The notes beneath the pieces were generated by a model, which was not told the origin of the DNA, ran no database searches, and saw only the letters and a list, made by a program, of their open reading frames with translations. From contig JAUXRI010000270.1 of NCBI GenBank assembly GCA_030681895.1, positions 62,001-126,000 of the forward strand: 64,000 nt of DNA, given 5' to 3'. The translations under genes were made by a program, and so were the position numbers. Shown piece after piece: positions 2,344 to 45,757 of the stretch (position 1 is the stretch's first letter; each line of letters begins with the position of its first letter). This DNA comes from Myxococcales bacterium (GTDB lineage Bacteria > Myxococcota > Myxococcia > Myxococcales > Myxococcaceae).

Positions 2344-3120
2344 TCAGCTCCCCGTGAAGACCGGCGCGCGACGAGCGGCCGCGGCGGCGAGGCCTTCCGC
2401 CATGTCGGCGCTCCCGTAGCTGACGGCCTGGTGCGCCGCTTCCGCCTCGAGACACCGCTGGAGCGCGGCACGGTCGGCTCCGAGTTCCGCCTTCAGCGCC
2501 TTGATGGCCAACGGAGCCTGCGCCGCCAGCGTGGTGGCGAACGCGCGCGCCGCAGGCATCACCTCGGCCAGTGGCTGTCCTTCGAGCGCGAGGCCGAGGC
2601 CCACCGCGTCGGCACCAGAGAAGCGCTGGCCGGTCATCAACAGCCGAGCAGCCTCCGCCGGGCCCGCTCGCCGCGGCACGAAGTACGTCGCGCCCATGCC
2701 GGGGTGCAGACCGAGCTGCACGAAGTTGAGCGCCAGCTTTGCCTCGACGTCGACGAAGCAGAAGTCACACGCCAGCGCGAGACAGAAGCCCGCGCCGATG
2801 GCGGCACCTTCAACGACGGCGATGGTGGGCACCTCGAGGTCGAGCACGCTCAAGTAGCGGGCATAGAAGCCGAGCATGAAGCGGCGGGCTTCCTCGGCCG
2901 GCACGCTCCGGAGCCGCTCGAGCATCGTCAGGTCACCGCCGCCCGAGAACGCGCCGCCTGCGCCGGTGAGCAGCACGACCCGAACATCGGCCCGGCCCTT
3001 CAGGTCCTCGACGCGTGCCTTCAAGGCGTCGCCGAGCTCCGGCGTCATCGCGTTGCGCCGGCCGGGCTCATCGAGCGTGAGGGTCGCGACGGGTCCATCG
3101 ATGGTGAGGTGAACGGGCAT
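2344..3120 (-). CDS. Enoyl-CoA hydratase/isomerase family protein
   Basis: 258 aa crotonase-fold protein. Start chosen at MPVHLTIDGPVATLTLDEPG, the usual crotonase N-terminus; the frame stays open another 168 codons upstream, but that stretch has no family similarity. Oxyanion-hole segments are visible: GAGGAFSGGGDL near residue 60 and VEGAAIGAGFCLALACDF near 105. The usual catalytic-glutamate region reads LGLHPGMGATYFVPRR, so hydratase versus isomerase or other crotonase activity cannot be assigned. The C-terminal helical region is present. Likely acts on acyl-CoA in fatty acid or branched-chain breakdown. No beta-oxidation partners are adjacent. Confidence 0.85.
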   Translation of the reverse strand: MPVHLTIDGPVATLTLDEPGRRNAMTPELGDALKARVEDLKGRADVRVVLLTGAGGAFSGGGDLTMLERLRSVPAEEARRFMLGFYARYLSVLDLEVPTIAVVEGAAIGAGFCLALACDFCFVDVEAKLALNFVQLGLHPGMGATYFVPRRAGPAEAARLLMTGQRFSGADAVGLGLALEGQPLAEVMPAARAFATTLAAQAPLAIKALKAELGADRAALQRCLEAEAAHQAVSYGSADMAEGLAAAAARRAPVFTGS

Positions 3121-3548
3121 GCCGCGGAACTGAGGCGAAAGCGGCCGTGGCGTCACGCTCAGAATCGGGCAGCAGTCGTTCAAGAAGCGTGGCGCGGAAA
3201 TCCGAGACGCCACGCGCCGCCCCGACCGCTCGATGCGCAGGGACACATCGAGTCGCCACGGTTCGAGCCCCTGATCACCGTTCGACTCAACAGGCCCGAC
3301 CTCGGTGGTTTCGATCTCAAACGCACGCGCCAGGTGAGCCGCATCGTGCGCGTTGCTCGAGGCCATGGTGTCAAGCGGGCAGCTGAGGCCGTGCTCCGTG
3401 TGGGGCTCGACGTTCCGCCTTCGCGATGACAGCGCGTACCCGCTCGCGAGCATGGAGTGGATGTCATTCGGCTGGCGCGCGCAGGCCCGGCAGCATCGTT
3501 TCGCAGCGACGAGACGTCTCGGAGCTCGAACTCCACCGCGGGAATTGC
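3121..3548. other. Gene-free stretch, no recognised feature
   Basis: Frames on the minus strand remain open here because of high GC, including an upstream extension of the enoyl-CoA hydratase frame. None shows a recognisable domain, a convincing ribosome site or consistent third-position bias. Nothing further is supported. Confidence 0.4.
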
Positions 3549-3784
3549 GTCGAGCAGCGAGCGCGCCGCCTTCTTGCCGCGGCTCAGCTCGAACGCACGA
3601 GCTTGAGAGCGGCCTCTTCGACACCCCGTCGCCGTTCGACCTCGATGGTCGTGCCCCGCGTCGCTCGAGCAGCGAGCGCGCCGCCTTCTTCGCCCCCGAG
3701 GCTCAGCTCGAACGAACGAGCTCGAGCACGGCCTCTTCGACCCCTCGCGGCCGCTCGATCTCGATGGTCGTACCCTGCGTCGCG
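3549..3784 (-). repeat. Two tandem ~115-120 bp units derived from the 3' end of the GreA/B-like gene
   Basis: Units start at 3550 and 3665, and a third copy of the opening (tcgagcagcga) starts at 3785 inside the gene. Read on the minus strand, unit 2 encodes the real C-terminus, ending VEEAVLELVRSS-stop at 3703. Unit 1 encodes a diverged copy, ATRGTTIEVERRRG then VEEAALKLVRSS and a stop at 3584. The outer copy is thus an orphan gene tail, left by tandem duplication of the 3' end or by decay of a second gene copy. Confidence 0.75.
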
Positions 3785-44199: not shown

Positions 44200-44673
44200 C
44201 TACCCGTCAGCGGCCTGTGTCTGGGCGGGTGCCGCCGTCGCGCGGCGGGCGAACGCGAAGAACGAGAGCGCGAGCTTCGAGGGCAGGTGCGCCACCTTCA
44301 GCGTCACCGCCGGGTGCACCGGAGCCCAGACGATGAACAGCTCGTCGAGGAACTCGTCGCCGAGCTCGGTGACGCCCTTGAAGTCGACCGTCACCTCGCC
44401 GGCCTGCACGTCGAGCATCAACAGCCGCGCCGAGAGGCGATAGCGCGAGCCCGCCGACGCGACCTCCACCCGTTGCCGCAGCGGCACCACCGGCGTGTAC
44501 CGAACTGCGCGCGCGCGACCCGACGTGGCGAGCCGGCCCTGGGCCACCAGCGTGCGCAGGTGTTTGTGGACGGCCTGACGTGAGACGCCTGCGAGCGAGG
44601 CGAGCTCCCGGCTGCTGAAAGGGGCTCCCGACTCGAGCAGCTTCGCCAGCGCTCCGTTGACGATTCCCGACAT
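44200..44673 (-). CDS. HTH plus STAS-like DUF4325 regulator
   Basis: 157 aa. N-terminal winged helix (residues 18-52; SSRELASLAGVSRQAVHKHLRTLVAQGRL) and a C-terminal STAS-like DUF4325 domain (about 75-140; LMLDVQAGEVTVDFKGVTELGDEFLDELF). HTH-DUF4325 proteins are thought to be signal-responsive repressors, but no target is well defined. The 5' end itself contains one TTGACGAT-type repeat (44656-44664, codons 4-6 in antisense), and seven more lie upstream, which strongly suggests autoregulation through an operator array. Confidence 0.8.
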   Translation of the reverse strand: MSGIVNGALAKLLESGAPFSSRELASLAGVSRQAVHKHLRTLVAQGRLATSGRARAVRYTPVVPLRQRVEVASAGSRYRLSARLLMLDVQAGEVTVDFKGVTELGDEFLDELFIVWAPVHPAVTLKVAHLPSKLALSFFAFARRATAAPAQTQAADG

Positions 44674-44878
44674 GTCTCGAGTTGTAGAGCCGCTGCGGCG
44701 GAGCTCCAGTTTTCAGCCGCTTCCGCCGGCCGTTGACGATGGCGCGCACCGGTTGACGATGGCGATGGGGCGCTGGTTGTCGATTCTCGCGTGCGGCTTG
44801 ACGGTTCTCGGGGGCCGACCGCCCGCCGCAACGAGGTTGACGATGGCGGGTTGACGATGCCGGGCGCTGGTTGACGAA
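44656..44878. promoter_or_regulatory. Array of eight GTTGACGAT-like repeats, candidate operator array
   Basis: 9-mers begin at 44656 (gttgacgat, inside the regulator 5' end), 44732, 44752, 44776 (gttgtcgat), 44797 (cttgacggt), 44836, 44850 and 44870 (gttgacgaa). Several continue as gttgacgatggcg. Spacings of 20, 24, 21, 39, 14 and 20 bp place most on one DNA face. All share one orientation. The array occupies the divergent gap between the HTH-DUF4325 gene and a small membrane operon, so it may control both. The rest of the gap (44879-45119) shows nothing more. Confidence 0.7.
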
Positions 44879-45119: not shown

Positions 45120-45470
45120 ATGAGCTCGTACCTGCTCCTCCGGTTCTTCAAGTTCCTCGGCGTCGCGCTGCTCTTCGCAGGCACCGTCGGTACCTTCTCG
45201 GCGAAAGACCTCGACGCCCGCCGCACCTGGGCCGAGCTCCACGCCGCGCCAGGCTTCGTGCTGACGTGGATGGTGGGGCTCGCCGTCGCGACGACGACGG
45301 GCGTGAACCCGATGGTGTCGTGGGTCGTCATCGCGGCACTCAGCTCCACCGTCAGCCTGCTCGCGGTGCTGACGCAGGCCCACCTCGTCGAGCGCCGGCA
45401 CCTGGGGCTCTCGGTGCTCGCGGCGGCCGGCTTCCTGGCGGCGCTCGCGTCGATGGTGTGGAAGCCATGA
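45120..45470 (+). CDS. Small four-helix membrane protein
   Basis: 116 aa from the ATG at 45120 (MSSYLLLRFFKFLG). Hydrophobic helices: FFKFLGVALLFAGTVGTF, GFVLTWMVGLAVATTTGVN, VSWVVIAALSSTVSLLAVL and LGLSVLAAAGFLAALASMV, joined by short charged loops (SAKDLDARRTW, LVERRHL). No known domain recognised. Its stop overlaps the next ATG by 4 bp, so it is coupled to the DUF3817 protein. Divergent from the HTH-DUF4325 regulator, with the repeat array between them. Confidence 0.75.
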   Translation: MSSYLLLRFFKFLGVALLFAGTVGTFSAKDLDARRTWAELHAAPGFVLTWMVGLAVATTTGVNPMVSWVVIAALSSTVSLLAVLTQAHLVERRHLGLSVLAAAGFLAALASMVWKP

Positions 45471-45757
45471 AGGCCTTCACGTGGGTCGGGCGAATCGAAG
45501 GCGTGTCGTACCTGCTGCTGTTCTTCGTCGCGATGCCGCTCAAGTACGGGCTGCAGCTGCCGGCGATGGTGAAGTGGGTTGGCCGCGGGCACGGGCTGCT
45601 GGTGGTGGCGTTCGTGGTGACGCTGGCGTTGGCGGCGCGCGCGTCGAAGTGGAGCGCCCGCCGCATCGCGTGGGCCTTCATCAGCTCGATGGTCCCGCTC
45701 GGGTTCGTCTTCTTCGAGGCGTCACTGAAGGTCGACGAGAAGCGCTCGCCTGCGTGA
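45467..45757 (+). CDS. DUF3817 small membrane protein
   Basis: 96 aa. FTWVGRIEGVSYLLLFFVAMPLKYG and the GHGLLVVAFVVTLALA helix match DUF3817, a three-helix inner-membrane family of unknown function. The Trp-Gly-Arg N-terminus and MVKWVGRGHG loop are family hallmarks. SARRIAWAFISSMVPLGFVFFEASLK gives the last helix. It is translationally coupled to the four-helix protein; both may form one membrane complex under the upstream repeat array. Confidence 0.82.
   Translation: MKAFTWVGRIEGVSYLLLFFVAMPLKYGLQLPAMVKWVGRGHGLLVVAFVVTLALAARASKWSARRIAWAFISSMVPLGFVFFEASLKVDEKRSPA

Follow-up and report, generated by a model that had tools for sequence, protein, structure and literature searches.

The array of short repeats next to the HTH-DUF4325 regulator gene in the 64-kb window (the whole stretch of DNA analyzed) is, with a probability of about 0.83 and judging from comparative sequence analysis, a multi-site operator of that very gene, bound by the HTH-DUF4325 protein it encodes. 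The array is co-conserved with the regulator and absent from the neighboring genes; its copies show helical phasing and flank or overlie the regulator's promoter and start codon. Since it occurs at the regulator's own gene across several phyla while the neighbors change, it should belong to the regulator, which is also its probable ligand, as the first-pass annotation of this DNA had supposed. Control by the gene's own product is very probable, and repression seems a better guess than activation, although with less assurance.

The unit GTTGACGAT was found in five exact copies and three variants between positions 44656 and 44878, every copy on the plus strand. The exact copies are the putative operator copies 1, 2, 3, 6, and 7 (44656..44664, 44732..44740, 44752..44760, 44836..44844, and 44850..44858), while copies 4, 5, and 8 are the variants GTTGTCGAT (44776..44784), CTTGACGGT (44797..44805), and GTTGACGAA (44870..44878), respectively; the steps between successive copies are 76, 20, 24, 21, 39, 14, and 20 bp. 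Copy 1 lies within the regulator gene, where it reads codons 6 to 4 as ATC GTC AAC (I-V-N), and the array as a whole is located in and beside the 446-bp gap separating the two divergent ATG codons (44673 on the minus strand and 45120 on the plus strand). These coordinates bear out the initial description of eight repeats in one orientation, five of them exact, at a 446-bp divergent gap, with one covering codons 4 to 6 of the regulator. The "phased" spacing claimed at the same time holds across the relatives, where a periodicity is evident, and only in part for this copy alone, with its steps of 14 to 76 bp. In the window TTGACGAT occurred 8 times versus 0.97 in shuffles (8 was never reached, n = 100), with five of the eight within 203 bp. 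The exact 9-mer was present in 154 copies in the entire 9.8-Mb genome, which gives 0.003 expected per 203 bp, and the only two pairs of exact TTGACGAT 2 to 32 bp apart in the whole genome were both inside this array. No Rfam match indicative of an RNA element was found. A regulon of genome-wide arrays was also considered for the window's genus and rejected, as other close pairs were about as frequent as, or slightly more frequent than, those of a reversed-pattern control and apparently lay mostly in coding sequence.

The regulator itself (44200..44673, minus strand) is a protein of 157 amino acids with a winged HTH at approximately residues 1 to 62 and a STAS-like domain at approximately residues 76 to 150. 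It is a member of Pfam DUF4325 (PF14213), a STAS-like domain of unknown function, scoring 25.5 bits against the curated cut-off of 23, and its N-terminal winged HTH matched HTH_11 with 25.4 bits against a cut-off of 25. No other DUF4325 match was present in the window's genome. The AlphaFold2 model of the protein comprises a winged HTH and a small alpha/beta domain (mean pLDDT 77, pTM 0.52), and a fold search with the HTH model returned MarR/ArsR-type and related winged helices with a best E value no better than 0.004. A HATPase domain was not matched by Pfam in this protein, and the alignment shows a gap at the position of the ATPase of its relatives. A TTGACRA array at its own gene, which we propose as a feature of the family, is present here in eight copies.

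The first-pass annotation had named the same 9-mer array at orthologues as the check for its proposal, and nearly all Myxococcaceae orthologues turned out to carry it next to differing neighboring genes. Orthologues with 55 to 87% identity had ATCGTCAAC arrays despite different upstream genes; relatives from the same genus or family had the same word upstream in variable copy number and orientation, and a spacing of 20 + 14 bp (or 19 + 14 bp) recurred in the window and at L012/L037, L038, and L039. Two loci, L063 and L065, were found through the repeat pair alone, and both were at previously unlisted orthologues. One orthologue, L022, had no site at its own regulator; its genome, G010, has TTGACGAT arrays at two other places (L084:2368-2433 and L085:2212-2251), the former between the frames of an RCC1-like lipoprotein and an outer-membrane-like protein. 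Upstream of the L024 regulator, TTTACGAT and GTTACGAT half-sites form inverted rather than direct repeats.

The generality of the association was evaluated in 59 nonredundant regulator genes, drawn from the earlier loci, from Myxococcota, and from the phyla of three distant loci, the latter searched via Zoogloea, Acidobacteria, and Spirochaetales records. At least two exact TTGACRA sites were present at 33 of the 59 regulators versus 1 of 70 neighboring genes (P = 2e-13, kinship ignored), 0.2 expected in shuffles, and 5 of 642 tiles; this and the other P values are to be taken as guides because L063 and L065, included in the set, had entered it through the motif itself and the genes are mutually related. 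The 18 kb upstream of these genes contained 127 TTGACRA sites versus 4.9 in shuffles (maximum, 12) and 6 in an equal length downstream, and in most genes the array was confined to the upstream side. In an unbiased tally, the 8-mers most often present at least twice per upstream region were AATCGTCA, ATCGTCAA, GTTGACAA, and GTTGACGA, each found at 13 to 15 loci versus a shuffle maximum of 4 for any 8-mer. Among 56 same-strand spacings of up to 60 bp, 36 fell at 19 to 25 bp and others at 11 to 12 or 43 to 45 bp, with a periodicity of approximately 10.5 to 11 bp (Rayleigh p about 5e-9, kinship ignored).

Alignment of the promoters of the short-type genes revealed a pattern of GAAAACTGG or a TTGC-like −35 element, approximately 17 bp, TAnnnT, 6 to 8 nt, and ATG. 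In the window this corresponds to a predicted −35 element CTGGAG (44704..44709, minus strand), within the conserved block GAAAACTGGAG, and 17 bp from it a predicted −10 element TACAAC (44681..44686, minus strand), 7 nt before the ATG; a sigma-70 scan of the locus found no promoter-like site and did not pick up this −10 element. Because TAnnnT precedes the ATG by only 6 to 8 nt in most short-type genes, the predicted transcript of these regulators is leaderless. Of the 18 short-type genes, 11 have the copy over codons 4 to 6, in the form ATCGTCAA[CG]. The valine codon within it is GTC in every one of the 11, against 41% GTC among valine codons in the rest of these genes (p = 5e-5), a bias suggestive of selection at the DNA rather than the protein level.

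Beyond the myxobacteria, arrays were found in relatives from Pseudomonadota, Acidobacteriota, Spirochaetes, Vampirovibrionales, and WOR-3. The 13 nonmyxobacterial loci encode mostly proteins of approximately 350 amino acids composed of HTH, a GHKL ATPase, and DUF4325, and tandem GTTGACAAT with an 11- or 21- to 23-bp spacing covers the promoter and start codon of these genes themselves, typically as three copies 21 to 22 bp apart or spaced 23 + 11, the last one close to the ribosome-binding site or start. A pattern search of four genomes placed every GTTGACAAT pair at the ends of the regulator's gene. The family is therefore wider than first drawn: the HTH-DUF4325 core stands, and most nonmyxobacterial members add, between the HTH and the STAS-like domain, an ATPase domain whose type resembles SpoIIAB. 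That protein was the best match in a PDB fold search with the ATPase-type model (E 1e-5), RsbV/RsbW scoring lower, and a sequence search found no solved structure covering the HTH-ATPase-DUF4325 architecture. The form devoid of the ATPase in the Myxococcaceae has probably arisen through loss. A second DUF4325-like frame, possibly a partial duplicate, lies approximately 600 bp downstream of one regulator (L049:4558-4995), and a second GTTGACAA array is present at the regulator 3′ end in L045:3992-4034 and L127:579-715; in L045 it has the same 23 + 11 spacing as upstream, encodes the last codons RVDK, and faces a convergent next gene.

The presence of the motif was modestly linked to a helix of the protein: regulators with a helix close to SRQAVHKHL had it in 33 of 38 cases versus 12 of 21 for the others (P = 0.02), and in genes lacking it the helix tended to be changed. 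Many of the latter instead had tandem TTTACRA or TTGACGCT-like words, and drifted TTKACR repeats were detected in 19 of 36 genes without TTGACRA versus a shuffle mean of 1.3, a result that is supportive only, since the relaxed pattern was picked after inspection. Among 13 usable, more distant genes from a viral-contig collection, only 3 had at least two exact sites.

We then weighed other roles for the array. Its position in the 446-bp gap between two transcription units is what one would expect of a divergent operator serving chiefly the membrane pair on the other side, i.e., a membrane protein of 116 amino acids with no Pfam family (45120..45470, plus strand) and a DUF3817 protein of 96 amino acids (45467..45757, plus strand; PF12823, 73.8 bits), which the first-pass annotation had put forward as targets and a small regulon. 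Among the orthologues examined, however, the pair adjoins the regulator in this genome only, the fetched flanks of its homologues in relatives contained no TTGACRA, and two genomes with both pair genes (G018 and G020) had no regulator match. Because the pair is not kept beside the orthologues and its homologues are devoid of sites, the membrane regulon is not supported and such an operator is quite improbable, an extra effect in this species alone being conceivable; on the sequence evidence, the array marks the regulator gene and not a regulon. No upstream gene was common to the orthologues, and a conserved neighbor as partner was rejected, an SDR gene being shared with one other orthologue and a hemerythrin-like gene with two. 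A set of overlapping sigma-70 type promoters is a still less probable identity for the repeats. In its favor, the −35 consensus of such promoters reads TTGACA, one copy can act as a −35 in AT-rich relatives, the −10 score peaks at a 17-bp spacer (mean, 2.39 of 6; at least 5 of 6 in five of 69 copies), and in L045 a TTGACA-N17-TATAAT ends immediately before the ATG. Most copies, however, have no −10 at the right distance (with a 17-bp spacer, 0 of 16 in the short type reach a score of at least 5 of 6), the conserved unit GTTGACRAT extends beyond the hexamer, TTGACGAT in Myxococcaceae lies on either strand, 50 to 250 bp upstream as well as within the gene and apart from the predicted promoter, and neither the scan of this locus nor the single site-bearing gene among 70 neighbors fits a promoter role.

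An iteron-like replication origin, a partition site, and a mobile-element remnant are the least credible origin of the repeats. Direct repeats about 21 to 22 bp apart beside a winged-HTH gene do look iteron-like, the HTH model resembles, among many winged helices, the AspA centromere-binding protein, and in two lineages arrays occur at both gene ends; yet the contexts look chromosomal, the neighbors change, the array is mostly upstream only, and ATPase-type queries found no match in 72,556 plasmids (L047 and L045) or 50,697 phage records (L047). A regulator-bound array could also serve as an activator platform, which we regard as unlikely though less so than the foregoing. The nearest upstream copy starts 45 to 67 bp before the start in several short-type genes, and a class-I activator would be well served by proximal sites around −57 to −67, but this distance varies (−156 in L038), and repression accounts better for the copy found at +10 in 11 of the 18 short-type genes as well as for those covering the ribosome-binding site or start codon of many ATPase-type genes. 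The self-control operator, our preferred reading, has counterevidence of its own: L022 is devoid of sites at its regulator while its genome has arrays elsewhere, only 3 of the 13 viral-collection genes have two or more exact sites, the helix-motif link is modest, copy number, orientation, and distance vary widely among genes, the 3′-end arrays in two lineages are ill-suited to a simple promoter operator, and, with one copy doubling as a −35 hexamer in some AT-rich relatives, some of the conservation in those genomes might reflect promoter sequence.

In the mechanism we propose for the self-control operator, the winged HTH would read TTGACGAT, or in relatives TTGACAAT or the drifted TTTACRA, and several protein units would join on one face of the DNA or loop the upstream array to the +10 copy, which would lie inside the leaderless transcript. 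The main outcome would be autorepression, and the nucleotide state of the ATPase form could tune its DNA binding. More speculatively, and with the odds rather against it, the regulators may represent an undescribed widespread family combining a DNA-binding head and a full SpoIIAB/SpoIIAA-like pair on one chain, in which ATP binding or hydrolysis would govern assembly on phased TTKACRAT arrays, mainly at the own gene and, in some genomes, at adjacent defense genes, and of which the Myxococcaceae have an operator that outlived the ATPase.

A self-regulating winged-HTH gene is of a known kind; what sets this one apart is the putative operator word together with the fusion of ATPase and STAS-like domains. 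MarR/ArsR-type autoregulated repressors share the winged HTH, the helical phasing, and operator sites that cover the repressor's own promoter; here, in contrast, there are up to eight direct, nonpalindromic words of variable number and orientation, and the effector part is the STAS-like DUF4325 domain, often plus an ATPase. The ATPase form resembles the partner-switching systems SpoIIAB-SpoIIAA and RsbW-RsbV in combining a GHKL ATPase with a STAS-like domain, but here a single chain carries both, preceded by a DNA-binding domain, no sigma factor was seen, and the window protein lacks the ATPase. A literature search on DUF4325 returned two passing mentions (PMC5982333 and PMC7924643), and searches on DUF4325, on STAS-like plus HTH, and on the repeat found no paper in the library covered that describes the family or its operator. 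DUF4325 gains a candidate DNA target that is testable and holds across several phyla, and many of its members emerge as single-chain fusions of an HTH, an anti-sigma-type ATPase, and a STAS-like domain. A candidate operator also makes DNA binding, control by nucleotides, and the inducing signal open to direct assay.

In some genomes the regulator may control phage defense, as it lies within phage-defense loci there. In L050 an HTH-ATPase-DUF4325 gene (L050:3-6164) is located between HmaB and HmaC of an Hma defense system, and in L181 the regulator adjoins a type I restriction-like gene and a gene for an XRE-HTH protein with an IrrE/M78 peptidase domain (reverse-complement coordinates, about 2495 to 3679). 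The latter gene has three GTTGACAA copies, which cover its promoter and, in one case, codons 2 to 4, and it is the clearest candidate for a second target. The regulator's neighbors in L153 resemble those in L050. In the WOR-3 genome, a methyltransferase gene lying downstream of the regulator's 3′ end has two copies in front of it.
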